From positions 1 to 64,000 of the forward strand of contig NZ_JALJRB010000010.1 of assembly GCF_022968795.1 (NCBI RefSeq): 64,000 nucleotides of DNA, written 5' to 3'. Of the stretch, positions 7,195 to 21,457 are shown one piece after another (within the stretch, counting starts at the first letter, position 1; each line of letters begins with the position of its first letter). Made by a program: the position numbers and the translations under genes. This DNA comes from Desulfatitalea alkaliphila (GTDB taxonomy: Bacteria; Desulfobacterota; Desulfobacteria; Desulfobacterales; Desulfosarcinaceae). The notes beneath the pieces were generated by a model that was not told where the DNA came from, did no database searches, and was given only the letters and a program-made list of their open reading frames with translations.

Positions 7195-8073
7195 CTATCC
7201 TTTGCGACTCTGTTTGAGAAACACCTTGGCTTTTTCCACCTCCGCCAGCACCCGCGGTTCCATGGCGGCCACCGTTGCCACATCGGTGCCGATGCGCTCG
7301 ACGAGTTCCTGGATCAGCAGCCGGTCCTGGTAATCGTCGCCCGCGGTGGCGATCCGGAACTGATGGGCCATCTGGTTGGCCAGGCTGACGAAAAGCAGCA
7401 GCCGGTCCGGCCGGCAGCCCTCCGCCAGGGGCTGGTGGTGGTGCACCACGGCATGCTGCATGGCCGCGTTGAGTTTCCACTTGGCGCCGATGAGCCATCC
7501 CACCTGGCAGTGATCGAACCCCACCTCCTGCCGTTCGGCCTTGAACAGCGGCACCTCCTGTTCCCGGCAGCGGCGCATGGCCCGCGAGTAGGCATCGGCA
7601 AAGCAGGCCGCCATGGGCAGCTTGCCCAGGTCGTGCAGCAGCCCGGCCACGAAATACTCCTCCTGCTCCATGGGCGGCACCCCGTCGAGCCGCGCGATCT
7701 CCTTGGTGGCGGCGCCCACGCAGAGGCTGTGGGCCCAGAAATCGTCGATGGCGAACAGGGCGTTCGCCTTGCTGCCTTTGAAGGCCGCCAGCACCGAGGT
7801 GGCCAGCACCAGGTTCTTGACCGTGTTGACGCCCAGCATGATGATGGCCCGGGTCAGGGATCCGATCCGGTTGGGCAGACTGTAATAGGCGGAATTGATC
7901 AGCTTGAGCACCTGGCCGGCCAGTACGGGGTCCAGGGAGATCACCCGGTTCAGCTCCTGGGGCGATGCGAAGGGATTGTTGCACACTTCCAGCACCTTGG
8001 CGACGGTGGTGGAAAGGCTGGGCATCCGCGCAATGTGGAGCTGAATGGTTTTTAAACGCGCCTCGGGGGTCAT
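7195..8073 (-). CDS. HDOD domain signalling protein
   Basis: The 292-residue protein is essentially one HDOD domain. It opens 'RLKTIQLHIARMPSLSTTVA', followed by the typical 'VISLDPVLAGQVLKLINSAY' and 'IGSLTRAIIMLGVNTVKNLV' segments, with 'LLHDLGK' at 145-151. HDOD proteins are non-hydrolytic relatives of HD phosphohydrolases and are thought to assemble signalling complexes in stress and motility control. The stop is 4 bp before the start of the metallo-hydrolase, so the two form an operon. No output or receiver domain is attached. Confidence 0.88.
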   Translation of the reverse strand: MTPEARLKTIQLHIARMPSLSTTVAKVLEVCNNPFASPQELNRVISLDPVLAGQVLKLINSAYYSLPNRIGSLTRAIIMLGVNTVKNLVLATSVLAAFKGSKANALFAIDDFWAHSLCVGAATKEIARLDGVPPMEQEEYFVAGLLHDLGKLPMAACFADAYSRAMRRCREQEVPLFKAERQEVGFDHCQVGWLIGAKWKLNAAMQHAVVHHHQPLAEGCRPDRLLLFVSLANQMAHQFRIATAGDDYQDRLLIQELVERIGTDVATVAAMEPRVLAEVEKAKVFLKQSRKG

Positions 8074-8251
8074 GGGGCGGTTACTTTCCGACCGACCTGC
8101 GGGGATGCGGGGTTGCCTCGGCCACGGCCAAGGCGTTGCGGCAAGGGATCTTCACCGACGCGCTGCCGTGCGACCGCTGGGGGCCGTGAAGGCGGGGGCG
8201 CTGTTGGGCGGACGCCAAAGGAAACGCCCGCCATGGTGCCCCCCCGATTCT

Positions 8252-8533
8252 TCAGGAATTGATCTTCTCGCGCAATTTGCCGGAACATTTGAACGTGACC
8301 ACCTTGCGCTGGGACAGGATCAGATCGTTGCCGGTGGCGGGGTTGCGGCCGCGCCGCTCCCGTTTGTTTTTGACGCAGAACTTTCCGAAGCCGCTGATCA
8401 GCACGTCTTCATTGTTTTCCAAAGTCCGTTTGATGATTTCAATCAACTCTTCGACAACTTCGGTGCTCTTGTTCTTGGGAAATGGCAGCTCTTCGTGAAT
8501 GATCTCCACAATCTGGGCTTTGGTCAGCGTCAT
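8252..8533 (-). CDS. ihfA: Integration host factor alpha / HU-family DNA-bending protein
   Basis: The 93-residue protein has the length and layout of the HU/IHF family. It opens 'MTLTKAQIVEIIHEEL' and has the conserved 'ISGFGKFCVKNK' turn and the DNA-inserting arm 'RRGRNPATGND' with its minor-groove proline, followed by 'VVTFKCSGKLREKIN'. The sequence is closer to IHF alpha than to HU. It binds and bends DNA as a dimer, helping sigma-54 promoters, recombination and phage integration, all of which occur in this window. A strong ribosome-binding site (AAGGAG) precedes the start. Confidence 0.85.
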   Translation of the reverse strand: MTLTKAQIVEIIHEELPFPKNKSTEVVEELIEIIKRTLENNEDVLISGFGKFCVKNKRERRGRNPATGNDLILSQRKVVTFKCSGKLREKINS

Positions 8534-11203: not shown

Positions 11204-11280
11204 GCGCCCGTAGCTCAGCTGGATAGAGTGCCGGACTACGAATCCGTAGGTCGCAAGTTCGAATCTTGCCGGGCGCGCCA
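11204..11280 (+). tRNA. tRNA-Arg (anticodon ACG), CCA encoded; integration site
   Basis: A complete 77-nt cloverleaf: acceptor GCGCCCG with CGGGCGC, D-arm GCTC AGCTGGATA GAGT, anticodon stem CGGA/TCCG with loop CTACGAA (anticodon ACG), T-arm GCAAG TTCGAAT CTTGC, discriminator G and encoded CCA. Its adenosine 34 should be converted to inosine by TadA, encoded next door. The last 53 bp (11228-11280) are repeated perfectly at 20787-20839, showing that a mobile element integrated here and restored the gene with its own copy of the 3' part. Confidence 0.96.
11228..11280 (+). other. attL: 53-bp integration core, left copy
   Basis: The 53 bases from GTGCCGGACTACGAATCCG to the encoded CCA end are identical to 20787-20839. 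The bases just outside differ on both sides (A versus T before; ATAAAAACA versus TAAAAATCA after), which fixes the limits of identity. The repeat covers the anticodon loop and T-arm. Confidence 0.95.
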
Positions 11281-11290
11281 ATAAAAACAA

Positions 11291-11323
11291 GGGGTTACGC
11301 TAAAAACGTAACCCTCTTTTTTT
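11291..11323 (+). terminator. Terminator after tRNA-Arg (brought by the element)
   Basis: The 8-bp stem GGGTTACG / CGTAACCC (11292-11299 and 11307-11314) with an AT-rich loop is followed by TCTTTTTTT. A related but different terminator lies just after the right att copy, so the element has replaced the tRNA's terminator with its own. Confidence 0.85.
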
Positions 11324-11789
11324 GGAAAAATCGCCCGTGTAAGCGGTGGTGTAAGCATATCCGGTCAATGCCCTGGTAGTGCCCCCTCTTATTATATAAG
11401 GAGCGGCCCCCATGGCACCCACCAGGGCCCCCCACGGCCTTGCCCGTACTGGTCCCGGCATGCTTGGCGGCCTTGGTGCGGGTTTCACGTTCTCGCTCTC
11501 TGGCCTTGCGGTGGTCTTCGCAATCAGGGCATTGCTTTAGATTTACAGGGTAAACGCATCCGCAGTCGCAATGGTAATATCGAGGGGGCGCTGGACTTTC
11601 CGTCAAATTTGACGGAATGTTGTTTTTAAGGTCGGTTCGCTCTCCCTGCCGATTTTTCGCTTCAGCCTCATACAGCGCCTCGGCGGAAACGCCGGTTTGC
11701 GATGCTATTTTTTCGGCGGTGTCGGTGGAGGGTTCAATCAATTGCTCATTGTGAGCATTTGATTTTTCGCTTTTCCTGTCGCCCCCCAT
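11295..11789 (-). CDS. Hypothetical protein, probably a truncated HTH/zinc-motif remnant
   Basis: From the ATG at 11789 the product has about 164 residues. The early part ('GGDRKSEKSNAHNEQLIEPS' then 'TDTAEKIASQTGVSAEALYE') resembles the helix-turn-helix linker region of ParB-like phage and plasmid regulators. It is followed by a small cysteine cluster 'HCDCGCVYPVNLKQCPDC' and a glycine-rich tail that runs into the tRNA terminator. In-frame coding sequence extends upstream only through the terminator at 11845-11873, so the gene has probably lost its 5' part. It is the last gene before the left end. Confidence 0.4.
   Translation of the reverse strand: MGGDRKSEKSNAHNEQLIEPSTDTAEKIASQTGVSAEALYEAEAKNRQGERTDLKNNIPSNLTESPAPPRYYHCDCGCVYPVNLKQCPDCEDHRKARERERETRTKAAKHAGTSTGKAVGGPGGCHGGRSLYNKRGHYQGIDRICLHHRLHGRFFQKKRVTFLA
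11337..11356 (+). promoter_or_regulatory. Paired GTGTAAGC repeats, candidate integrase arm sites (left)
   Basis: GTGTAAGC occurs at 11337-11344 and again at 11349-11356, a 12-bp period. The same octamer recurs near the right end (20510-20526 and 20618-20636). Tyrosine integrases of this type use paired arm sites on both sides of the core, so these are good candidates. Confidence 0.5.
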
Positions 11790-11828
11790 ACCCTTCTTCG
11801 CCCGCTCATAAATCCGGCCACGGATGGT

Positions 11829-11844
11829 GTCTGCAATTGCAGAC
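11829..11844. promoter_or_regulatory. Perfect 16-bp palindrome GTCTGCAATTGCAGAC
   Basis: The palindrome directly adjoins the T-run of the terminator at 11845-11873. It could be a dimeric repressor site for the terminal gene. No second copy was seen in the element. Confidence 0.4.
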
Positions 11845-11873
11845 AAAAAAAGGGCCACCCCGAAGGGCGGCCC
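11845..11873 (-). terminator. Strong intrinsic terminator with UUCG tetraloop
   Basis: On the minus strand a 9-bp stem (GGGCCGCCC with GGGTGGCCC, one G-U pair) closes a TTCG tetraloop and is followed at once by seven T residues. It lies 22 bp after the stop of the gene ending at 11895 and probably ends the element's main transcript. Confidence 0.9.
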
Positions 11874-11894
11874 CGATGGTGCGGTTGTGGTCGG

Positions 11895-12299
11895 CTACCA
11901 ATCGCCGTTGGCGGCCCTCTTGGCTTTCCATTCCAGAAAGTCCACCACATTGGCCGGGCGTGATTTGTGCAGCCCACATGCAATCAGGCCCTGAATCAGG
12001 ATGCGGTTCGCATACAGGGTTTTTCTGGCTTGGGACAGCTGGGTCTGAAACCCCTTGATGCCGCCCTCGGTCAACGGCTCCCCCGTCCTCTTGTGAACAG
12101 GATTGCGCAGCCGCTGCTTTGCCTCTGTTAAGACGCACGCATGTATACGCTGGCGTCTAAGCGCCTCGGAAAACACCCTCTCGTCCCCTGCGACCGCCCG
12201 GTCAAAATCCCTGACCATAAAAAGGCCGTGAAAATGCTTAACCCCCAGCACCCGCCCCGACACTTTATCTCTCCAGAAAATGATTTTGTCCCTGTCCAT
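11895..12299 (-). CDS. Hypothetical protein of the integrated element
   Basis: A 134-residue basic protein starting 'MDRDKIIFWRDKVSGRVLGV'. No known domain is apparent. It has many arginine and lysine residues and predicted helices around residues 30-110, so nucleic-acid binding is possible. The start is preceded by a GGGGGTGG sequence. It is separated from the gene upstream by a long hairpin (12324-12389) and followed by a strong terminator, so it may have its own promoter. Confidence 0.55.
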   Translation of the reverse strand: MDRDKIIFWRDKVSGRVLGVKHFHGLFMVRDFDRAVAGDERVFSEALRRQRIHACVLTEAKQRLRNPVHKRTGEPLTEGGIKGFQTQLSQARKTLYANRILIQGLIACGLHKSRPANVVDFLEWKAKRAANGDW

Positions 12300-12323
12300 G
12301 TGACCACCCCCATAAAAACGAAA

Positions 12324-12400
12324 CGCGTCTGGATGTCCTACGGCTTATGACGGCCGCCGGGCCCTTGCGGGTTCCCGCATCCAGACGCGCTTGGTTTTTT
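12324..12400. terminator. Long inverted repeat, likely bidirectional terminator
   Basis: A perfect 12-bp inverted repeat (CGCGTCTGGATG at 12324-12335, CATCCAGACGCG at 12378-12389) encloses a 42-nt interior that contains a second hairpin, GCGGG TT CCCGC. Reading the minus strand, it is followed by TTTCGTTTTTA; on the plus strand TTTTTT follows after 4 bp. It lies between two minus-strand genes. Confidence 0.6.
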
Positions 12401-12507
12401 GGAAAGTCGGCATTGCGTAGTTCCCACGGTCATAATTTTTAGGATATTGTGACCATGCCACGGCCCCAACGCCCCGTCAAGCGAAAATCAACACACCAGG
12501 GGCGCAC

Positions 12508-12798
12508 CTACTCGACGAACGCCCCTTGGCCTATGCCTTGGTATGGGTTAAATTCACGCCATGGCCGGGGCCCACGCATGGCGCGCCGGATGGCATTAGG
12601 GTGGCGGCCCAGGACAAGCGCCAGCAGGGATAGCACCCCATGCAGCTCGTCAAGGGTCAGGGATGGTTCGGCGAGACGATAGCGGTCACAATCGACACAA
12701 CAGAAAAGGCAATCGGCATGGGCGGCAGCGGTCAAACAGGAATAGTAGTGGGCGCAATCGGGAAGGCGGGGTGGCAATGGTTCGTTGGGCAACAGCAT
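12508..12798 (-). CDS. Small cysteine-rich protein of the integrated element
   Basis: The ATG at 12798 is preceded by AAGGGGTG, giving a 96-residue protein. The first half holds many cysteines ('DCAHYYSCLTAAAHADC' followed by LFCCVDCDRY), which probably bind zinc. The second half is helical ('LTLDELHGVLSLLALVLGRH') and then basic. No family is recognised. It follows the capsid gene by about 150 bp. Confidence 0.5.
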   Translation of the reverse strand: MLLPNEPLPPRLPDCAHYYSCLTAAAHADCLFCCVDCDRYRLAEPSLTLDELHGVLSLLALVLGRHPNAIRRAMRGPRPWREFNPYQGIGQGAFVE

Positions 12799-12918
12799 CG
12801 GCACCCCTTTTGAGGAAGGAGCGGCCGCCCCACCCGAAGGTAAGGGCGGCCCCAAATGAAAACGTACCCAGTGCGCCCGTTATTCGGCAACTGCCCAGGA
12901 CACGGTACGCTGGTCCTG

Positions 12919-12937
12919 TCGCGGGACCGTCCCGCGA
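12919..12937. terminator. Hairpin 3' of the capsid gene
   Basis: TCGCGGGA and TCCCGCGA pair perfectly over 8 bp around a 3-nt loop, starting 10 bp after the capsid stop codon. There is no following T-run, so it is more likely an RNA 3'-end stabiliser or processing signal than a true terminator. Confidence 0.4.
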
Positions 12938-12946
12938 AACTGTATG

Positions 12947-14224
12947 CTAAGCGCTGCGGCTACCCGCCAAGCACACAAAATGACCAACATCGTTGGAGCC
13001 CTTGAACGGACTGATCGGCGCCGACAGCACCGGCTGACCATCAATCCGCATCACGAACCGGAAAACCGATTCATCGTAAACGAACCGAACGTGGATGCTC
13101 ATTGCAGCATCAATGCCGCCCTTCTCGGCCAGGATGTAGCCGTTGGAGAAGTCGCCGAGGATGATGTCGCCGGCGGTGTCGGGTGCCTGGCATTGCTCGA
13201 TGGGAATCACCGGGCGGCCGAAGATCGTGCCATAGGGGGCTTGAGACAGCCCCTGCGCGGGCATATACAAGGGCGCCACGCCGCCGGATGAACCTTCCAG
13301 GGTCAACAAATACAACTGCGGGAGTAATTCTTGATTTATCAGCCAAACAGCACTTTTTTGTGAAGCGGGAAGTAGGCGCGCCCACATTTTGACTATATTT
13401 TCAGGAACAAGGGTGCCGGCCGCTTGGCTTTCAGCGGCTTGGGTAACCAGACCGCCGCTGTTCAAGATGCCCAGCGGCTGGGTGGCACCGGTGCCGTTGA
13501 TGATGGCATCGTCCAGAGCAAAGGCCAGCTCATCGCGGGCCATGCGGCCGATGGCTTCGGTAAGCACGGTGCTGTCCTGCAACAGCTCGTCGGTGGCGTA
13601 AATCAGCACGGCCGACTTTTTCAACTCCAAGTCGATCTGGCGGAATTTGGGTTTGCTGGCGGTCTTCTCTTCGGCTTCACCAACCCAATAACTTCGCACG
13701 CCACCCCAACGGCTGCCGGTGGCACGGGACGTTTCGTCAAGGCCTGGAATCTTGATTCCATTGCTGTTGCCGCTGATTTGGATACGCCTGCACAATTTGG
13801 CAACTTGGCCGCTTTCGTAAACGTTTTGCAGCAGTTCGGCCGCGAATTGCTTCTCAATCAAAAACCCGCCATCGGAGGGCACGGTTTCGTTCAGACCAGA
13901 AGCAGAGTTGACCACCTGATGCAAGCGATTGTCCACGGGGCCGCCAGGGATACCGGCATCGCGGATGGCACGGAGCTGTTCGCCAAAAGAGTTGAACAGG
14001 GTGCGGTCGGTAGTACGGCCGCCGCCGAGTTGGACGGTCAACGCCCGCTGGGGCATGTGGTCCAGTTCGTTTTGCAGCTTCGCAATCGCTTCGTTGTACT
14101 CGGCCATCAAGGCCTGTTCAGGCTTGGTGAGTTGGCGACCATCGGCGGCCGCACGTTTACGCAGGGTTTCGACTTTGCTTTCGACAAATTCAATGTCGGA
14201 TTGTACTCCGTTTGCTGTCCTCAT
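12947..14224 (-). CDS. Phage major capsid protein, HK97 fold
   Basis: The 425-residue protein has the layout of HK97-type capsid proteins. Residues 1-60 form a helical coiled-coil scaffold ('SDIEFVESKVETLRKRAAAD' and following). Then come 'TVPSDGGFLIEKQFAAELLQ', the long spine helix region 'IGRMARDELAFALDDAIING', the family signature 'GTGATQPLGILNSGG', and a late 'GTIFGRPVIPIEQC' with 'DIILGDFSNGYILAEKGG'. In phages it assembles into the icosahedral shell, and its N-terminal scaffold is usually cut off by a protease encoded upstream. No protease or portal gene accompanies it here. Start is supported by AAAGGATAATCTACC. Upstream lies an array of structured GGA hairpins. Confidence 0.93.
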   Translation of the reverse strand: MRTANGVQSDIEFVESKVETLRKRAAADGRQLTKPEQALMAEYNEAIAKLQNELDHMPQRALTVQLGGGRTTDRTLFNSFGEQLRAIRDAGIPGGPVDNRLHQVVNSASGLNETVPSDGGFLIEKQFAAELLQNVYESGQVAKLCRRIQISGNSNGIKIPGLDETSRATGSRWGGVRSYWVGEAEEKTASKPKFRQIDLELKKSAVLIYATDELLQDSTVLTEAIGRMARDELAFALDDAIINGTGATQPLGILNSGGLVTQAAESQAAGTLVPENIVKMWARLLPASQKSAVWLINQELLPQLYLLTLEGSSGGVAPLYMPAQGLSQAPYGTIFGRPVIPIEQCQAPDTAGDIILGDFSNGYILAEKGGIDAAMSIHVRFVYDESVFRFVMRIDGQPVLSAPISPFKGSNDVGHFVCLAGSRSA

Positions 14225-14289
14225 GGTAGATTATCCTTTCGAATAGGAAGTGTTTGAATCGTGTGTTTTGCCTACTCCCATCCGAAGGT

Positions 14290-14493
14290 CAACATCCCGT
14301 TGAATTTCGAATCGGTTCCGCTGGAATCCTTGCCAACGTCCCGTATGGGTCCGGTTTCCAACTTCTCCGCGCAACGTCCCGTTGCACATCGCATCTTTAA
14401 GTGGTTGCCTATGGTGCTATACCCTTTCCGCGTCGGTCCTGTCAGCGTCCCGCTGAAGGCTTGTGCAGCGTCCCGCTGCAATAGCCTCGGACC
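14290..14493 (-). ncRNA. Five-hairpin GGA-triloop RNA array upstream of the capsid gene
   Basis: On the minus strand five short hairpins each expose GGA in the loop: 14480-14464 (TGCAGCG-GGA-CGCTGCA), 14456-14442 (TCAGCG-GGA-CGCTGA), 14385-14371 (GCAACG-GGA-CGTTGC), 14348-14333 (CCATACG-GGA-CGTTGG, one bulge) and 14302-14290 (CAACG-GGA-TGTTG). Stem bases differ between copies but pairing is kept. The first two hairpins sit inside a larger fold (GGTCC 14493-14489 with GGACC 14439-14435; AGGCT 14487-14483 with AGCCT 14461-14457). This matches how CsrA/RsmA-type proteins recognise RNA, but identity as a CsrA target or sponge is inference. Whether it is a separate RNA or part of the capsid mRNA leader is open. 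Confidence 0.55.
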
Positions 14494-14497
14494 TATA

Positions 14498-14770
14498 CTA
14501 TTCAAGTATCTCATCGACCACACCCATTGCCGCCGCACATTGCGTCACCGCATCGGCCAAGAGCGCCTTGGTCGCAACAGATATGCATTGCAGCCCCAGC
14601 ACATCGCCGGCGGCCGCCAGTTGAGTGCAGGCCACGCCCAAGTTGAGCAGCACATCGGCATAGCGTTTGCTGATTTCGTGGGCCTTTTGGTCCACTTGCT
14701 CGGCGGTGAGGGATTGTTTTGATTCGGGTGGGCCAAAATTCCATGATGCTTTTCCAAGTGAGTGTGCCAT
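14498..14770 (-). CDS. Small hypothetical protein of the integrated element
   Basis: A 90-residue protein with start supported by AGGAGAATAG. It is helical: 'LTAEQVDQKAHEISKRYADV' followed by 'LLNLGVACTQLAAAGDVLG'. No family is recognised. It lies between the terminase-like cluster and the capsid gene, a position where phages often encode head or decoration proteins, but the sequence itself does not show this. Its stop is immediately followed by the hairpin array. Confidence 0.5.
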   Translation of the reverse strand: MAHSLGKASWNFGPPESKQSLTAEQVDQKAHEISKRYADVLLNLGVACTQLAAAGDVLGLQCISVATKALLADAVTQCAAAMGVVDEILE

Positions 14771-14790
14771 TTTGCTATTCTCCTATAATA

Positions 14791-15246
14791 CTACGTTTGT
14801 GGGTTGAAAGCAATGATTTTATGCTTTTCCTTTTCCTGCAACAGTCCGTGTTTGTGTAGAAAAGCCGCTTGCTTCTCCGGCGTCCACCGTGACCGCCTCT
14901 GCGCCTGCGCAACGGCCTTTTGGTAGTGGTCAGGGTCACTGCCCTGGTCGGCAGGATTCGCCGCGTCTGGGGCGTCCCAGGTCCACCAGGGCAGCGGCCG
15001 CGTGCCGGGGTTTCTGGCGATGAATGCAGCCAGAAATTCGCCGCCGTATTCTTTCCACAGGTTAGACGGATGCCGCGCCTTGGCAGGGTCCAGCAGCGGC
15101 GGGCCTTCTCCGTCGAACAGGCGAAAGTAGTAACAGGCGGTCGGCCAGGGGGAAAAATCCTCATACGGCAGGCGCCGGCCATCGCTGGCCAGGTATCGCT
15201 CCTGCCATGCTTCCAGTGGTGCAATGCTTGCTTTCTTTATCGCCAT
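14791..15246 (-). CDS. Phage-type hypothetical protein next to small terminase
   Basis: Starting at the ATG preceded by GAGGTGA, the 151-residue protein contains 'NPGTRPLPWWTWDAP', a tryptophan-rich motif that is common in uncharacterised proteins lying beside terminase genes of prophages. The first half has a zinc-free, mixed alpha/beta look ('KEYGGEFLAAFIARNPGTRP'), and the tail is helical and basic ('RRSRWTPEKQAAFLHKHGLL'). The gene starts 5 bp after the P27-type small terminase stop, so both should be translated from one mRNA. Function unknown. Confidence 0.6.
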   Translation of the reverse strand: MAIKKASIAPLEAWQERYLASDGRRLPYEDFSPWPTACYYFRLFDGEGPPLLDPAKARHPSNLWKEYGGEFLAAFIARNPGTRPLPWWTWDAPDAANPADQGSDPDHYQKAVAQAQRRSRWTPEKQAAFLHKHGLLQEKEKHKIIAFNPQT

Positions 15247-15251
15247 CTTGT

Positions 15252-15587
15252 TCACCTCGCGAACTGCTTGCCGGGGCCCGGCGGTCGGCCCACGCCGCGC
15301 TTGGGGTCGGGTTCGGGTTGACAGATACCGAGCAAGCGGCACCCGGCGAGAAAACCAGCCCAGGCGTTTTTTGCTATTTCACACGCTGGATGCTTGCGGA
15401 CCAATCCGGCTTCGGTGACGAAGGTCATGCCCGCTTGCTCGATTTGGTCGGTAGCCTTCCAGAACAGGTCGAGGTTTTGACAGGTCGCCATCACAACCCG
15501 CTGCTCGTCGTCTGGGAACTGCCAGGTTTGGTGGAGGGTCTTGAAAAACTGCGTTGTCTCTTTATGCCATTTGGGATTCGGTTTCAT
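15252..15587 (-). CDS. Phage terminase small subunit, P27 family-like
   Basis: The 111-residue protein has the length and pattern of P27-type small terminases: 'TLHQTWQFPDDEQRVVMATC', a central helix 'FWKATDQIEQAGMTFVTEAG', then 'RKHPACEIAKNAWAGFLAGC' and a proline/arginine-rich tail ('RGVGRPPGPGKQFAR'). Small terminases recognise the packaging site and hand DNA to the large ATPase subunit. The large subunit would normally follow but is absent here, so packaging would need a helper phage motor. Start preceded by GAGGAAAGC. Confidence 0.7.
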   Translation of the reverse strand: MKPNPKWHKETTQFFKTLHQTWQFPDDEQRVVMATCQNLDLFWKATDQIEQAGMTFVTEAGLVRKHPACEIAKNAWAGFLAGCRLLGICQPEPDPKRGVGRPPGPGKQFAR

Positions 15588-15654
15588 GCTTTCCTCAAAA
15601 CAATTGTTTCGAATTATTTTCTAAAAATTGAGAGTCATGGGGCGGTTTCGGCGA

Positions 15655-15777
15655 CTAAGGGTTGTGAAGATTGAAACCGGCATACCCCCCAATTTTAATT
15701 CGCGTTATTGCGTGCGGGGGGCCAGGTCCGGTTGCAGTCCTGGCGGCCCATACGATATGGGTGGCCCCGGTGGTCAT
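15655..15777 (-). CDS. Possible 40-residue small protein
   Basis: A short frame begins at an ATG that overlaps the stop of the preceding gene as TGATG and ends with TAG at 15655. The predicted peptide starts 'MTTGATHIVWAARTATGPG'. The tight overlap is the main evidence. No family or domain is visible and chance cannot be ruled out. Confidence 0.25.
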   Translation of the reverse strand: MTTGATHIVWAARTATGPGPPHAITRIKIGGYAGFNLHNP

Positions 15778-16028
15778 CAGCACACCTCCCACACATCAGC
15801 CTTGGTAAACGTCAGCTTGTCTCCGCGCCGCAGACCATCACACGGGGTGTCTTCGATTTCGGCGACGAACACCTTCTCCTGTCGCCGATGCTCGGCGACG
15901 CGGCACCAGATGGCTGAACCGGTGCGGGCGTAGAGTTTGACAATCGAACCGGGACGAAGCCCATGCAGCTCATGCGGCTGAGGTCGAAGGTCCGGCGGCC
16001 ACATTGAATCGGGTTGTGATAACTCCAT
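15777..16028 (-). CDS. Small hypothetical protein coupled to the DnaC-like gene
   Basis: The ATG at 16028 overlaps the stop of the DnaC-like gene as TAATG, which fixes this start over longer alternatives. The 83-residue product has a beta-rich core ('GSIVKLYARTGSAIWCRVAE' followed by 'VFVAEIEDTPCDGLRRGDKL'), suggesting a small beta-barrel. A similar layout is found in uncharacterised phage proteins beside replication genes, but no name can be given. Confidence 0.55.
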   Translation of the reverse strand: MELSQPDSMWPPDLRPQPHELHGLRPGSIVKLYARTGSAIWCRVAEHRRQEKVFVAEIEDTPCDGLRRGDKLTFTKADVWEVC

Positions 16029-16891
16029 TACACACCCCCTTTCAGTCTTCTGTCCCGACCGTCCAACCTGATCACCGTGCACATCTCGGTTATACGGCTT
16101 GCAATCCGGTCGTTCAGATGTTCGGCCAGCTCGGCCAGGGACAAATTGGAAGTAAAGAACGTTCGCCGGTTGTCGCGGTATCGCCTATCCACTATCAGGT
16201 AGATCATGCCCAGCGCCCACTCGGTTGGCTTCTCCACCCCAACATCGTCCAGTAGGAGCAGCGGCACATCCGACACCTCTTCCAGGATCCCCTCTTCGGT
16301 ATCGCCACCCCTGGTGTTGTATGTGCCGCGCACCTCGTGAAGCACTTCCTGTATCGACGTCAGAAGCGGATAGCGATGAAATTCACGCAGTTGATATTCC
16401 CCCTTAGGGTCAGTGTAAATCGCTTTACCTACAGCCTCTGAGCGCATCACAGCGCACAATAAATGCGTCTTGCCACTACCCACCGGGCCATGGATATAAA
16501 CGCCACGATCATCGGGAATGGCGTCGATGATAGTCGCCGGAAAATCACCAAGCCGTGCATGGCGGTGGCGCTTCGGCATACCACGATCACGCAGCGTAAC
16601 ATCCATGTCCCGGTCCCTGGCCGCCACCAGAACGGCAAGCCTACACTGTTGACACTCCATGATCTCCCACATCTGCGCCCGCTGTGGAGTGAATGTCGCC
16701 ACCAAAGGCGCTCCGCAGTCTGTGCAAATTTTTTCCGGTGGGTACTGCCTCAACAGGTCAATCACATCGTCCGGCACCTTCGGGTAGAAGTTATGCCATA
16801 CGTCGCGGGAGACTTCGAACCAACCACCCACCTTCAACCTTTCTTCCAATGTCGCAAGGTCCATCTGTGTTTCCATCGGCTTTCCCTTCAT
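16028..16891 (-). CDS. DnaC-type helicase-loader ATPase
   Basis: A 287-residue AAA+ protein. The N-terminal part has two cysteine pairs (C56/C59 and C80/C83) that probably bind zinc. Then follow Walker A GPVGSGKT (135-142), Walker B 'VPLLLLDDVG' and a sensor region 'RTFFTSNLS'. The resemblance is to phage and bacterial DnaC/IstB-like loaders, which place DnaB helicase on DNA. Its start overlaps the stop of the upstream replication-type protein as ATGA, showing co-translation. It implies that the element can start its own DNA replication using host helicase. Confidence 0.85.
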   Translation of the reverse strand: MKGKPMETQMDLATLEERLKVGGWFEVSRDVWHNFYPKVPDDVIDLLRQYPPEKICTDCGAPLVATFTPQRAQMWEIMECQQCRLAVLVAARDRDMDVTLRDRGMPKRHRHARLGDFPATIIDAIPDDRGVYIHGPVGSGKTHLLCAVMRSEAVGKAIYTDPKGEYQLREFHRYPLLTSIQEVLHEVRGTYNTRGGDTEEGILEEVSDVPLLLLDDVGVEKPTEWALGMIYLIVDRRYRDNRRTFFTSNLSLAELAEHLNDRIASRITEMCTVIRLDGRDRRLKGGV

Positions 16892-17640
16892 TCCAGATTG
16901 AATGTGAACTGCTCTATATTGTCGTACTTGGACCGAATCGCCGCCCGATCCGTCCCACCGTTGTCCCTATGGTCCTTCGCCGCCCGCGCCATCCAGCCGT
17001 TGACGAAACGCATGGCGCCCTTCCGCGTCTTTCGCTTGTCTGGATTTGCAAAACACCAGGAACGGATTTTTTTCAACTCACTCTCGATATTGATACCAGG
17101 ATACGCGGTCTGTAATTCTTGCACTGCATCATCACCCACATGGAAGGTGTCGCCGTTTTTCAACAAAAAGGAATGGACGTTTTTGCTAATAGTTGGTTTG
17201 GTATTTGATTTGGTATCTGATTTGGTAGACTGAACCTCTTTCAGTGCCTTTATGTCGTCAGGTTCAGTGCCTTTTGCACCAGGTTCAGTGCCTTTTGCTT
17301 CAAGGTGCTGAACCTCTTTCAGTGCCTTTGGGATTGTTGGATGGTAACAGTGCCGCCGCCAACCCTGCCCGTTGTGTCCCGCAACGGCCTTGAACAGCCA
17401 TCCGGTTTCCACCGCGATATCCAGGTGCGTGCATACCGATCTTTCCGATATGCCGGCTGCCGTCGCTAAGGTGGCGGTCGATGGAAAGCAGTTGCCGCCG
17501 TCCGGATCCATAAACACGGTCAGGGCCAATAGCACCAACCGGGTTGTGGAATGCTCCGGCCCGTCCTTCGATGCTACGGCCCGCCGGTAGGCGAAGACAA
17601 AGCCTTGACCGCGCCCGCTATTTGCGTTATGATCAGTCAT
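16888..17640 (-). CDS. Helix-turn-helix replication-type protein
   Basis: The 250-residue protein opens with a winged-helix-like domain ('FPSTATLATAAGISERSVCT' and 'HLDIAVETGWLFKA'), as in phage replication initiators. A low-complexity linker has two copies of 'KALKEVQ' and two of 'KGTEP' (about residues 105-140). A C-terminal domain 'NPDKRKTRKGAMRFVNGWMA' is typical of proteins coupled to DnaC. By position and layout it probably recognises the origin and recruits the loader. The origin itself may lie within the linker repeats, as in lambda O, but this is not proven. Confidence 0.7.
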   Translation of the reverse strand: MTDHNANSGRGQGFVFAYRRAVASKDGPEHSTTRLVLLALTVFMDPDGGNCFPSTATLATAAGISERSVCTHLDIAVETGWLFKAVAGHNGQGWRRHCYHPTIPKALKEVQHLEAKGTEPGAKGTEPDDIKALKEVQSTKSDTKSNTKPTISKNVHSFLLKNGDTFHVGDDAVQELQTAYPGINIESELKKIRSWCFANPDKRKTRKGAMRFVNGWMARAAKDHRDNGGTDRAAIRSKYDNIEQFTFNLE

Positions 17641-17663
17641 TCATTCGGTTCCCTTCACTCTCG

Positions 17664-17698
17664 CCCCGGCCGCCGTCCACGGTCGGGGTTGTTTTTTT
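17664..17698 (+). terminator. Plus-strand intrinsic terminator opposing the element's genes
   Basis: CCCCGGCCG and CGGTCGGGG pair over 9 bp (one G-T pair) around a 7-nt loop, and TTGTTTTTTT follows. All genes around it are on the minus strand, so it would stop an antisense transcript or one from a plus-strand RNA in 17.3-17.6 kb. No plus-strand gene ends just before it. Confidence 0.6.
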
Positions 17699-17724
17699 GC
17701 TCCCACGGAGCAAGATGCGCCACC

Positions 17725-18309
17725 TCAAGTGCCCGGCGGTTGTGACTGTTCCGCAAGAAAGCCCAGGTACTTGCCAAGGGTGGTATGGAGGTCATAGACT
17801 TCGGACCAGGTTTGGGGCGCCACCTTGGTCAAGGGCGTTCCCGCATCGAGTAGGGCTTGTGCTGAAGAGACAAAATGCCGCCAAAACGCATCGGATTCAG
17901 CGTCAACCGGCACAGCTTCAAATGCTTCTTGTGCGGCCTTCAATTTTTCTGCTGCAACTTCGCGCCGGCACTCTGAGCACAGGCGGTCCTTTGCAGGGCG
18001 ATGCAGACTTGCATGGGAAACATCTTCGGTCTTACATTTTTTGCACTTCGGCCATTCCATTTTGGATGCAGTTGCATCCACTTCCGACTTTCCGCGCTGA
18101 ATCATTGCGCGAACCGTGTTGACCGGCTCGCCTGTTTCCTCTGCAATCTGCTGTGCCGCCGCCCTCTCGGACCTGACGGTCCCAGCCTCGACCAATGCGG
18201 CCGCCTGCTTGGCATAGGTGACGTTGCAACGGCCGGCGGCCTGCTCGGCCTTTTCGACAATCTGGGCGAAGTCGTTGGGGTCTGCGCAGTCGATAGTGAT
18301 TCGTGCCAT
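17725..18309 (-). CDS. Hypothetical HTH / zinc-motif protein
   Basis: The 194-residue protein starts after AAGGAGTAGGC. A HTH-like region 'ERAAAQQIAEETGEPVNTVR' lies around residues 48-70. Next come two cysteine pairs 'WPKCKKCKTEDV' and 'DRLCSECRREV' that could bind zinc, and a helical tail. The mixture suggests a DNA-binding regulator or replication accessory factor, but no family is recognised. It begins 6 bp after the AlpA-like gene. Confidence 0.55.
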   Translation of the reverse strand: MARITIDCADPNDFAQIVEKAEQAAGRCNVTYAKQAAALVEAGTVRSERAAAQQIAEETGEPVNTVRAMIQRGKSEVDATASKMEWPKCKKCKTEDVSHASLHRPAKDRLCSECRREVAAEKLKAAQEAFEAVPVDAESDAFWRHFVSSAQALLDAGTPLTKVAPQTWSEVYDLHTTLGKYLGFLAEQSQPPGT

Positions 18310-18314
18310 GGCGC

Positions 18315-18497
18315 CTACTCCTTTTCAAGCTGGAGTAGTTGCTCCACGGCTTTCGCCGGCCACATCAATCGCCCATTGGGCAGCTTGACCGGCCGCACGC
18401 CAAGGTAATGGCCCTTCACGCACAGCCCACGCCGCACGGAATCATTTTTTACGCCAAGGGATTCGGCAAATTTTGAAGTGGGAAGATACTGATTCAT
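18315..18497 (-). CDS. AlpA-like small helix-turn-helix protein
   Basis: A 60-residue protein ('MNQYLPTSKFAESLGVKNDS' and following) with an N-terminal MerR/AlpA-type helix-turn-helix and a final wing ('VKLPNGRLMWPAKAVEQLL'). Such proteins in satellites and phages act as excisionase-like or activator proteins that control integrase and excision. The start at 18497 is preferred over a TTG two codons upstream because AAAGGGG lies 6 bp ahead of it. Role inferred from size, fold and place near the integrase. Confidence 0.6.
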   Translation of the reverse strand: MNQYLPTSKFAESLGVKNDSVRRGLCVKGHYLGVRPVKLPNGRLMWPAKAVEQLLQLEKE

Positions 18498-18601
18498 GGA
18501 CAACCCCTTTCTTTATTGAGTTGTCCACAGAATAAGTCAGATGCTTGCGGCAATCAACGTTAAATCATTGATATTATTCAGAAAGTTGGCATCTAACCCG
18601 G

Positions 18602-19168
18602 CTAAGTGCCAACACGCTTTGATAGGATTGCGCGAATTGTCCGGGGCTTAAGGCAGTATTTGATGGCGTATTTTTCAGCGAAAGCACTGGCCGTCAGCCG
18701 ATGCCGAAGTCGCCCGTAGTGGTCAATGATGGCCTGGTTGCGCTTTTCACGCTCTTTAGGTGCCACTCCTTCGCGGGTTCGGGGCTTGCTGGCCCGTTTC
18801 CTTTGCGTGTCGCTGGCCGCCGCAATTTGCTGTTTAGATGCGCTTGCGTAGAAGTCCCGCCACGACCAGTTTATATCCGATATGGCATCGCGCAGGGCAT
18901 CAGGGTCGCCGATATGCTTGACGGTTGCGTTGACCACAATCAGCAGCGCCATAGCATCACCGTAGCATACTGTCAGGCCGTGGCGGTCCAGTTCATCCTT
19001 TATAAACGCTTCCAGGGGGTCGGCGATAACGAATCGGGTAAAGGATGGGATACGGTCCGGGGCTTCGGTCGCCAGGTTGTCGAGGTCCTGAAAAATCACC
19101 CCCCAGTCCGTGGGGTCCAACAGGGCCTTGATGCGGTCGGCCATCGGTGGTTTTCGTCGCTTGGTCAT
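18602..19168 (-). CDS. Hypothetical protein following integrase
   Basis: A 188-residue protein with start supported by AAAGGATAAGG and only 7 bp after the integrase stop. It is mostly helical; the C-terminal segment 'LTASAFAEKYAIKYCLKPRT' followed by IRAILSKR reads like a helix-turn-helix, preceded by a very basic linker ('RKRASKPRTREGVAPKERE'). It could be a regulator translated together with integrase. No known family is apparent. Confidence 0.55.
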   Translation of the reverse strand: MTKRRKPPMADRIKALLDPTDWGVIFQDLDNLATEAPDRIPSFTRFVIADPLEAFIKDELDRHGLTVCYGDAMALLIVVNATVKHIGDPDALRDAISDINWSWRDFYASASKQQIAAASDTQRKRASKPRTREGVAPKEREKRNQAIIDHYGRLRHRLTASAFAEKYAIKYCLKPRTIRAILSKRVGT

Positions 19169-19175
19169 GGCGTCC

Positions 19176-20495
19176 TTATCCTTTCACGACTTGCAGCCCG
19201 GTCGTAACCTCCGCTGGCTGTTCTATTCCAGCCTGTTCTAAAATCCACGCCTCGATTTTAACGTGCCACATCCGCAACAAATCAAGCGGCCGGCGCCGGT
19301 AATGTTTTTCGGCGGTCGCGCTCGGCTTGTGGCCCATCAGTTGGGCGACAACCCCGGCGGGCACCTCCACCCACTCGGAAAGGGTCCCGAAGGATCGCCG
19401 CAGACCGTGCAAGGTCAAGCCCTCGATGCCCGCAGCGGCCAATGCCCGGTTGTGCGGAATCCTTGGTTCCTCAAGGCGCCCTGACGCGGCCTTGGGGCTT
19501 GAGAACACCCACGCATTGCGCCGGGGCAATGGCGCCAGCAGGGCCTTAATATAAGGTGTCAACGGTAGGGTCCGTTCACCCTCCACCTTGTCGTGAATGG
19601 TCATGCTGTCCCATCGAAAATCCACGCCATCCCACTTCAGCCCGGCAAGCTCATTGCGCCTGGCGCCGGTCAATAGCAGGGTTTGAAGGTATGCGGCCAT
19701 CACCGGGTTCGATAGTCCGCGCACGGCCTTGAACCAAGCGCTTAACTGCTCCTTTTGCAAACAGTCGTCCTTGGCCCTACCCTTGGGTATGGTTTCGCGT
19801 TTGATGCGGGTTCCGCAGGCTTCCGGCGACACCAGGCCGGCATATTCAGGGTTGCGGTTGCACCAATTGACAAACGCGCGCAGTAAAGAAAAGGCAAGGC
19901 GGGTCCGCGTCCCACGCCGCCCGGCCTCTTTGGCGGCCCAGGCTTCGACCGTTGCCGGGGTCAGGTCAGCCAATTTCATGGGCATCAGTGACGCCAATGG
20001 TCCGGCCTTAATCTTGGTGCCCTTTTTCCCGCCGCGGGGCTTGACGGGTTCGCCGCCGGGCTTGGCAAGGTCCTGGTGGTCGAACAAGTGGCGCTCACTC
20101 CATTTGTGGGACCTGGCCTCGATATAGGCAGCCCATGCTTCGCCTACGGTAGCCGTTGCCCGCCGGGCTTCGGCCTGCTGCCGGGCGGTGTCGGCCACGG
20201 TTTGCTGTTTATCAATGCGGGGGTCAATACCCTTATCAATCAACCCCTGAAGGCGCCGCCCCTCCTGGCGCGCCCCTGGCGGGTCCGCTGAATCGATGGC
20301 CCAGGTCCGCACATCGCCTATTTTGACGCGGATGGATTTTCCGGCCAGACGGGATTGAAAAATGAACACCTTGGCGTTGGTGGTCGCCCGCACCCCCAGG
20401 CCAGGGACCACGCTGTCCCATAGAAAGGTTTGCTTGGTGTCGGCCGGGCATTGGAATTCCCGCACGCGGCCCGCTGTCAGTTTGACTTGTGCCAT
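19176..20495 (-). CDS. int: Tyrosine-type site-specific integrase
   Basis: The start at 20495 (MAQVKLTAGRVREFQ) has a perfect AGGAGG-type site upstream, whereas the longer frame crosses non-coding sequence. The 439-residue enzyme has the P4/DUF4102-type N-terminal arm-binding domain and a catalytic domain with R279 (TGARRNEL), H363 and R366 (LHGLRRSFGT), H389 (MGHKPSATAEKHY) and the nucleophile Y399. It recombines the 53-bp core in tRNA-Arg(ACG) to insert or excise the element. Two GCTTACAC boxes lie immediately upstream of its start and probably bind the integrase itself. Confidence 0.95.
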   Translation of the reverse strand: MAQVKLTAGRVREFQCPADTKQTFLWDSVVPGLGVRATTNAKVFIFQSRLAGKSIRVKIGDVRTWAIDSADPPGARQEGRRLQGLIDKGIDPRIDKQQTVADTARQQAEARRATATVGEAWAAYIEARSHKWSERHLFDHQDLAKPGGEPVKPRGGKKGTKIKAGPLASLMPMKLADLTPATVEAWAAKEAGRRGTRTRLAFSLLRAFVNWCNRNPEYAGLVSPEACGTRIKRETIPKGRAKDDCLQKEQLSAWFKAVRGLSNPVMAAYLQTLLLTGARRNELAGLKWDGVDFRWDSMTIHDKVEGERTLPLTPYIKALLAPLPRRNAWVFSSPKAASGRLEEPRIPHNRALAAAGIEGLTLHGLRRSFGTLSEWVEVPAGVVAQLMGHKPSATAEKHYRRRPLDLLRMWHVKIEAWILEQAGIEQPAEVTTGLQVVKG

Positions 20496-20509
20496 TTTAC
20501 CGCCCTCCT

Positions 20510-20636
20510 GCTTACACTGCTTACACGGGTTTGACCTTCGGACGTATAATCCGCATCTGGTTTGTGTGGCTCCCGGTTCAAAATCCGTCGGTCGGGTTGT
20601 CAAAAAGTGCCCATATCGTGTAAGCATCATGTAAGC
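20510..20636. promoter_or_regulatory. GTGTAAGC boxes at the right end, candidate integrase arm sites
   Basis: GCTTACAC occurs twice (20510-20517 and 20519-20526), and in inverted orientation GTGTAAGC (20618-20625) and ATGTAAGC (20629-20636). The left end has two copies of the same octamer. The first pair overlaps the likely integrase leader, so binding could also control integrase synthesis. The rest of the 290-bp leader holds no gene. Confidence 0.5.
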
Positions 20637-20786
20637 ACATTTTTACCATATTTGTCAATTGAAAAGTGTTGATTGGCGGTAGGCACCCCAGGTTTGGTAT
20701 GGCTTGTTTTTCGTGTTATTCCTTGGTATTGTCAATGATAATCAATGCGCTTCAACTCTTTACAAGGTGTGTAAAATTTACCCTAT

Positions 20787-20839
20787 GTGCCGGACTACGA
20801 ATCCGTAGGTCGCAAGTTCGAATCTTGCCGGGCGCGCCA
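20787..20839 (+). other. attR: 53-bp integration core, right copy (not a functional tRNA)
   Basis: Identical to 11228-11280. It holds only the 3' part of tRNA-Arg and lacks the acceptor 5' strand and D-arm, so it is not a tRNA gene. It marks the right boundary of the element and the original chromosomal 3' end of the tRNA. Confidence 0.95.
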
Positions 20840-20984: not shown

Positions 20985-21254
20985 TTAAGGAAGAAAGCGG
21001 TAGATTTGCCTTCGATGAAGTACACGGACAAAGGTGACTGTATCGTTTTCGATGATCATCCCTATCCGATATTCACCGGATCGGATACGATAGTAATCGC
21101 CCTGCGCTCTGAGTTTTTTCAGGTTTGGTATTTGACCAGTATCATCAACGCGTTCGAAATGAGCGATAATCTGCTTCACTCTTTCCAAGAGCTTGTGATC
21201 ATATGATATTTGCTTTAAATCCTTGGCAAAACGCTTTTTGAAGACGATCTTCAC
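20985..21254 (-). CDS. RelE/ParE-type toxin
   Basis: An 89-residue basic protein with the typical order of this fold: 'MKIVFKKRFAKDLKQIS', two helices, then 'NLKKLRAQGDYYRIRSGEYR' and 'GMIIENDTVTFVRVLHRRQI'. RelE-type members cut mRNA at the ribosome, ParE-type ones attack gyrase; sequence alone does not settle which. The start overlaps the antitoxin stop by 4 bp (ATGA). It lies just outside the right end of the mobile element. Confidence 0.85.
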   Translation of the reverse strand: MKIVFKKRFAKDLKQISYDHKLLERVKQIIAHFERVDDTGQIPNLKKLRAQGDYYRIRSGEYRIGMIIENDTVTFVRVLHRRQIYRFLP

Positions 21255-21457
21255 GTTGAGCCTTCCAGAATATCAAAAATTTCCTTCCTACTTACCGATG
21301 GCGAGTCTTCCCCTTGCCGGATGGCATTCTCAAGGGCAATATCCTCAACAGCCTCTACAACCAAATCATGCAAAACGCCTTTTTGTTCCTGCAATGCCTC
21401 GATAAAGGCCTCTTTCATCAATTGTTTAATTTTTTGTTCATCGATTAACGGTTGCAT
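21251..21457 (-). CDS. Antitoxin partner of the RelE/ParE-type toxin
   Basis: A 68-residue acidic helical protein ('KIKQLMKEAFIEALQEQKGV' then 'AVEDIALENAIRQGEDS') ending 'VSRKEIFDILEGST'. The acidic C-terminal 'ALENAIRQGEDSPSVSRKEI' type of motif is usual in antitoxins of this class and would wrap the toxin. It is encoded first and overlaps the toxin start by 4 bp. Start preceded by AAAGGAAAGAGAA. Confidence 0.8.
   Translation of the reverse strand: MQPLIDEQKIKQLMKEAFIEALQEQKGVLHDLVVEAVEDIALENAIRQGEDSPSVSRKEIFDILEGST

Follow-up and report, generated by a model that had tools for sequence, protein, structure and literature searches.

Lone homologs of phage capsid proteins have already been published in phage-inducible chromosomal islands (PICIs), so satellites of this kind are known (PMC6092414). 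In the portions of the literature cited here, SaPIbov5 is described as a cos-type Staphylococcus aureus pathogenicity island (SaPI) with a single capsid homolog, Ccm, which redirects the capsid size of the helper phage phi12, occupying the pentamers and forcing a small shell, and pac SaPIs are described as steering the large terminase subunit (TerL) of the helper with a small subunit (TerS) of their own (PMC5052747, PMC8569155). The same portions report capsid homologs in PmCI172 and EcCICFT073 (PMC6092414), a set of protease, portal, connectors and both terminase subunits in capsid-forming PICIs (cf-PICIs; PMC10690885), and tycheposons and virion-encapsidated integrative mobile elements (VEIMEs) as named marine satellite families (PMC11389934, PMC10803314). 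Here we describe an element of 9,559 bp, measured from the start of one terminal repeat to the start of the other, in a 64,000-nucleotide stretch of Desulfatitalea alkaliphila (contig NZ_JALJRB010000010.1, positions 1 to 64,000; hereafter the window). Our results suggest, with a probability that we put at roughly 0.7, that it is a phage satellite, integrated and intact, whose design resembles that of a PICI and which has its own TerS and capsid protein and borrows the rest of its particle from a helper.

Like SaPIbov5 and the other cos SaPIs with Ccm, for which the cited portions describe no other head genes, the window element has a lone HK97-type capsid homolog, the mark of the Ccm type; it differs from the staphylococcal island in having a P27-type TerS of its own, in its phylum and in its length of 9.6 kb. 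With the Gram-negative PICIs, as far as they are described in PMC6092414, it shares int, alpA, a replication module and a single direction, and some of those islands also have terS and some a capsid homolog. They are elements of Gammaproteobacteria of 12-15 kb, and EcCICFT073 is without TerS, whereas the window element has one. Like cf-PICIs it encodes its own HK97-type capsid protein, and the capsid of the cf-PICI EcCI2 is among the fold matches of its model, but the TerL, portal and protease that cf-PICIs carry were searched for and not found (connectors were not searched separately). P4-like satellites, for their part, are characterised by sid, psu and alpha primase genes. The integrase, replication module and alpA/merR regulator stand in the conserved order of a PICI and are transcribed in one direction, as in the Gram-negative PICIs. 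PICIs are also characterised by attachment sites that prophages never use, by induction through a helper phage and by interference with it. Because a PICI is expected to have no structural genes and to measure 12-15 kb, we do not file the element as a PICI, though it seems PICI-like in its working; capsid homologs are nevertheless reported in some PICIs in the portion of PMC6092414 cited. The preliminary description of this DNA took capsid-bearing satellites always to carry more head genes, a premise contradicted by SaPIbov5, PmCI172 and EcCICFT073 as described. Its interpretation is supported in that the element is compact, encodes a TerS and a shell protein, and lacks a recognisable motor, portal or tail; the idea that lone-capsid satellites were unknown is not. 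We met no description of a family with TerS and capsid only in the literature searched, the tycheposon and VEIME papers, figures and supplements lying outside that search. As far as our searches show, what is new is the TerS and capsid pair as a recurrent type and its spread in the class sampled, together with the exchange of modules at one site and the shared TerS lineage set against swapped capsid genes.

The limits of the element can be seen directly. Exact 53-bp direct repeats delimit it, within a 71-bp match at 96%, and the left copy completes tRNA-Arg(ACG), as the preliminary description had it and as repeat comparison and ARAGORN bear out. When a sequence pair of 1.0 x 1.4 kb, taken from the related locus L022 and not from the window, was shuffled 200 times, no exact repeat exceeded 16 bp. 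Tycheposons also integrate at tRNA genes. Between the repeats we assigned fourteen open reading frames (ORFs), selected by us from a mechanical ORF list and all on the minus strand (Table 1), in agreement with the one-direction set of about 14 genes noticed earlier. The integrase, helix-turn-helix (HTH) initiator, DnaC-type loader, P27 TerS and HK97 capsid of that set are confirmed by family models, and its AlpA-like regulator, which has no Pfam match, is kept on its similarity to a counterpart in another element (L121, below) and on reading by eye. The window was searched by tblastn with the TerL, portal, protease and capsid proteins of four phage or plasmid records and with the tail proteins of one of these, and no gene for TerL, a portal, a protease or a tail was found. 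Profiles grown from these proteins, which covered TerL, the portal and two types of protease, likewise recovered only capsid and TerS in the element; the sole match of a first S78 protease profile, which was contaminated, is the capsid ORF. No gap between ORFs is longer than about 290 bp, which leaves no room for a whole TerL or portal. No family scan named a lysis or repressor gene, although no separate search was aimed at them.

A second element, L121, lies at the equivalent tRNA-Arg(ACG) in another genome of the genus (G001), beside deaminase and purA-like genes. It has identical 51-bp repeats, is 9,932 bp long and carries a TerS and a capsid gene, with no TerL, portal or protease match by profiles. 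Its integrase is 78% identical to that of the window, and it also encodes relatives of the AlpA-like, 101-aa and 115-aa proteins of the window. Its replication protein, unlike the initiator and loader of the window, is of the primase/helicase type (phrog_239, 1.3e-26), its capsid protein falls in a different part of the capsid tree and its TerS is a distant relative (5e-6). The tRNA-Arg site was located in nine of 11 genomes of the genus, occupied in two and with a single-copy tRNA in seven, one of which (G004) has a contig too short to be sure. The empty site for which the preliminary description proposed to look is present in relatives, and none of the nine has a complete prophage at the located site, which is either empty or satellite-filled (prophage use elsewhere was not searched).

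The design is recurrent. In a sample of 340 genomes of the class, the capsid family PF05065 was above cut-off at 40 places in 34 genomes, and we inspected the surroundings of all 40. By profiles, TerS and capsid occur without TerL or portal at 12 of them: in G000 (the genome of the window), G001:C115, G093 (twice), G120, G138, G194, G264, G085, G261, where a ClpP-type protease is also present, and G242 and G334, where the contigs measure 5.4 and 5.6 kb, respectively. A portal or TerL is present at 14 places, and the other 14 are unclassed, being on short contigs, broken, or of other capsid types without a recognised neighbour. A Pfam search of the 34 genomes gave no portal or TerL_ATPase match at the twelve loci, at two of which (L022 and L032) the TerS itself is under the Pfam cut-off (3.6e-4 and 1.6e-4). 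Exact tRNA repeats of 48-53 bp bound six of the twelve, with sizes of 8.9-10.0 kb, so that five such elements besides the window were found in the related genomes where the preliminary description had suggested a search. They lie in tRNA-Arg(ACG) (window and L121), Arg(TCG) (L138), Val(CAC) (L022), Val(GAC) (L032) and tRNA-Asp (L133); L036 has a 19-bp repeat only, L035 no notable repeat, and further loci are untested or on short contigs. In the six bounded elements the large ORFs encode capsid proteins, integrases, and either primase/helicase or initiator proteins; the integrase of L022 was assigned by eye and because it resembles other integrases. The largest unassigned ORF noted has 242 aa. 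TerS together with capsid, again with neither a TerL nor a portal match, is also seen in five of five viral contigs found with a second capsid type (L113-L117, 7.7-9.7 kb). One of them, L114 (1-9309), has TerS twice, a capsid gene and no integrase seen by eye; since its replication-type ORF continues in frame across the contig ends, with no stop in 977 codons, whereas shifting the frame by 1 or 2 brings a stop after 8 or 17 codons, the contig is probably circular. Two related TerS genes with differing capsid proteins are found on one contig of G093 (contig 16: L122, and L138 in its tRNA-Arg).

In the TerS tree of 43 rows, the thirteen short TerS, which measure 103-116 aa, group in a single clade (support 98/98) that includes no phage TerS, an exclusivity that holds for the phage rows in the tree, which were sampled via capsid relatives. 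The phage TerS are of 124-205 aa in 20 of 22 cases, and the other two are of 90 and 315 aa. Seven further satellite-classed TerS fall outside the short clade, some among phage TerS (L025, L034, L117, L096), the L034 row being a fragment at a contig edge; the tree omits L106 and the repeats L068, L069, L078, L081 and L089. The capsid tree has 107 rows, 74 phage, 18 satellite and 15 unclassed, where satellite means that a TerS and no TerL or portal was found in the fetched stretch; the short contigs L025 and L034 and the tape-measure-bearing L096 thus count as satellite rows, and the same five repeats and loci with too short a model match are omitted. The satellite label changes 11 times on this tree, at least six of them forced by starred branches, against a shuffled mean of 17, and a single clade for the capsid proteins of the 12 capsid-bearing short-TerS satellites is rejected (approximately unbiased test, p-AU 2e-46). 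One capsid clade (L033-L036 with L113-L117) has eight satellite rows and one unclassed row; the window protein is nearest to capsid proteins of complete phages, with 60% identity over 322 columns, and L121, L133 and L138 are on long branches, so that their exact places are unsure. As the short TerS are one clade but the capsid proteins of their elements are not, the elements share TerS as their core and exchange their capsid genes, and some relatives have no capsid gene.

Those relatives were found with a profile of the short TerS (A6), which matches 18 places in 16 of the 340 genomes, 11 of them used to build the profile and so matched by construction. A capsid gene without TerL or portal stands at 11 places (at one, in G329, as fragments at a contig edge only); six places have no capsid gene and no TerL or portal, and one is a phage with TerL and portal (G176, the weakest match). 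Two capsid-less elements with tRNA repeats and short TerS, L175 (G199, 8,566 bp) and L181 (G120, 8,403 bp), have beside TerS related proteins (1.5e-28) of 242 aa (7733-8461) and 222 aa (7573-8241), coiled-coil-like by eye, which are possibly scaffold proteins. L183 (2751-15985, in G068) is a 13,175-bp element with 60-bp repeats in tRNA-Arg(TCT) and a short TerS; one of its proteins, of 1,202 aa, resembles a tape measure (phrog_31409, 2.5e-6), and it has no capsid, TerL or portal match. In a Nitrospira metagenome-assembled genome a tape-measure protein (phrog_8462, 2e-42) is accompanied by capsid and TerS (L096, 9860-14667). We know of no satellite that sets tail length. Outside these elements, weak TerS relatives occur in 61 phage records (E of 0.01 or better), mostly Gordonia and Moraxella phages, with identity near 30% among the matches listed, and one, at 36.5%, lies on plasmid pMNOD03 beside a P4-type primase, in a displayed stretch of 18.3 kb that has no annotated TerL. 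Single-protein pattern scans found no window TerS in the phage collection, no loader or TerS in the viral contigs and no capsid in the genome contigs; for the capsid the viral contigs gave two loci, both complete phage heads.

Taken together, the results point to the following cycle. A helper phage would trigger the element, perhaps through the AlpA-like regulator, upon which it would excise and replicate by its own initiator and loader. Its TerS would bind element DNA and recruit the helper TerL, and its capsid protein would enter or replace the HK97-type shell of the helper to give heads for about 9-10 kb, with portal, protease, TerL, tail and lysis provided by the helper. The capsid slot would change because the protein must fit the helper shell. 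The window element thus seems to join the TerS trick of pac SaPIs with the capsid trick of Ccm. The chances are about even that these elements are a distinct family, in which a short P27 TerS core on tRNA-targeted integrase and regulator backbones has beside it a plug-in slot for the part that determines particle geometry, swapped to follow changing helpers while TerS, as the packaging key, is kept. On this view the slot would have received HK97 capsid genes from varied phages time and again, or the scaffold-like coiled coils of L175 and L181, or the tape measure of L183.

Several observations weigh against the satellite interpretation. A triggering helper, induction, a circle, a packaging site and a particle are all things that we infer for this element, and its own genome lacks both a PF03354 TerL and any PF05065 capsid gene besides that of the element. 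According to the portion of PMC6092414 cited, interference and transfer by EcCICFT073 are unchanged without its capsid gene c1499. Of the seven A6 places outside the profile, one has capsid fragments, five no capsid and one is the phage; given such capsid-less places, the capsid gene is common but optional, not essential. Finally, the delta domain of the capsid proteins, which the two long N-terminal helices of the window model would fit, shows no overall difference in length (medians 137.5 in satellites and 131 in phages, p 0.80, some ORFs such as L044 and L046 starting too far upstream), and a shorter delta domain, which a Ccm-type redirector is expected to have relative to its helper, was not found as a general satellite mark. 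In the clade of the window it has 111-116 residues in the window (116), L022 and L025 and 130-131 in the phages L023, L024, L043, L062, L064 and L066, the upstream-extended L044 and L046 being left out, a difference that is suggestive only. The model itself has a mean predicted local distance difference test score (pLDDT) of 73 and a predicted TM-score (pTM) of 0.63; it matches a gene transfer agent capsid (6tb9, 3e-14), EcCI2 (9gyi, 1.2e-11) and HK97 (8fqk, 2.9e-11), with query TM-scores of about 0.4-0.46 against HK97-type capsids.

Within the satellite interpretation, it is conceivable but rather unlikely that the capsid protein alone makes the whole shell and that the helper gives portal, protease, TerL and tail, as in a stripped cf-PICI. 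The window protein is full length and has the identity to phage capsids given above, compared with 24% between Ccm and the phi12 capsid protein (cited portions of PMC5052747 and PMC8569155), and related elements have a separate ClpP-type protease (L031, 8658-9362) or a capsid fused to an S78-type protease (L117, 2883-4823), both without a TerL or portal match. Against this, neither tblastn nor profiles find a protease or portal in the window, and Ccm, the one lone homolog studied, is described as unable to form capsids alone. A use of the capsid gene as an anti-phage weapon that poisons head assembly, in an element not carried in particles, appears improbable: Ccm expression cuts the phi12 titre 10^3- to 10^4-fold (cited portion of PMC5052747) and we found no matching resident helper in G000, but own replication genes and a TerS suggest packaging of the element's own DNA, and PADLOC gave no match among the eight window ORFs of no known family. 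That the element is a decayed prophage which kept TerS and capsid by chance is very improbable and was set aside. In favour of it are the closeness of its capsid protein to capsids of complete phages and the decay of some related loci (L027). Against it stand the clean ends, the sizes of 9-10 kb, the separation of the TerS lineage from the sampled phage TerS, and the recurrence of same-set elements, one with exchanged modules at the same site in the same genus.

Table 1. Features of the element in the window, with the basis of each assignment
Feature	Position	Strand	Basis
tRNA-Arg(ACG), integration site	11204..11280	+	ARAGORN
attL, 53-bp repeat, 3' part of tRNA-Arg(ACG)	11228..11280	+	repeat comparison
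ORF, 187 aa	11295..11858	-	no confident family
ORF, 134 aa	11895..12299	-	no family match
ORF, 115 aa	12508..12855	-	relatives are ORFs of L121, L122, L138
HK97-type capsid protein, 425 aa	12947..14224	-	PF05065 5.8e-51 and HK97-fold model
ORF, 90 aa	14498..14770	-	no family match
ORF, 150 aa, PGTRPLPWW motif	14791..15243	-	relatives are TerS-adjoining ORFs of L036, L113 (L031 via L113)
TerS, P27 type, 111 aa	15252..15587	-	PF05119 1e-6 (over cut-off) and TerS tree
ORF, 101 aa	15777..16082	-	relatives are ORFs of L121, L177
DnaC-like helicase loader	16028..16891	-	phrog_50 2.4e-44
O-like replication initiator	16888..17640	-	HTH_36 4.9e-11; phrog_391 4.1e-11
Three 22-bp repeats within initiator gene	17230..17329	.	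repeat search
ORF, 194 aa, possible HTH and zinc-ribbon protein by eye	17725..18309	-	below-cut-off matches only
AlpA-like regulator, 62 aa	18315..18503	-	similarity to L121 3717-3971, 7e-21
ORF, 188 aa	18602..19168	-	no family match
Tyrosine integrase	19176..20630	-	PF00589 2.6e-13
attR, 53-bp repeat	20787..20839	+	repeat comparison

The integrase probably starts near 20495, because its similarity to the L121 integrase begins at residue 43. The three repeats within the initiator gene are possible iterons of a candidate origin. A 22-bp inverted repeat (12314-12399, 91% complementary, 42-nt spacing) lies between the 134-aa and 115-aa ORFs, the structure model of the 150-aa protein is poor (pLDDT 48), and a ParE-type toxin and a RelB-like antitoxin (20985-21457) adjoin attR on the outside. 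Relatives of the integrase at E of 1e-60 or better occur in nine of the 340 genomes, with TerS and capsid in G000 and G001, with TerS and the coiled-coil-like protein in G199, and with an initiator and helicase and no TerS or capsid match in G006, the remaining genomes being contig-cut or ambiguous. A second integrase in G000 (L171, G000:C32:367-1803), 77% identical to that of the window and with two in-frame TGA codons at a contig start, is perhaps what is left of a decayed sister element. A resident helper in G000 was set aside, since beyond the missing TerL and second capsid gene there is no second PF05119 TerS and the sole portal match is below cut-off. That match is on contig 5 (L139, G000:C5:48001-68000), among ORFs that by eye are phage-like and resemble a large phage terminase, a portal and a MuF-like protein.

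With these elements, piracy by a lone capsid homolog, studied in a few cases before, becomes a design that recurs within one bacterial order. Because their capsid genes are swapped while the TerS core is shared, they make up a natural series in which it is testable how a foreign capsid reshapes the head of a helper, and also how satellites follow changing helpers. A short TerS, no TerL and tRNA ends together give a search rule for elements that might otherwise be dismissed as remnants of prophages.

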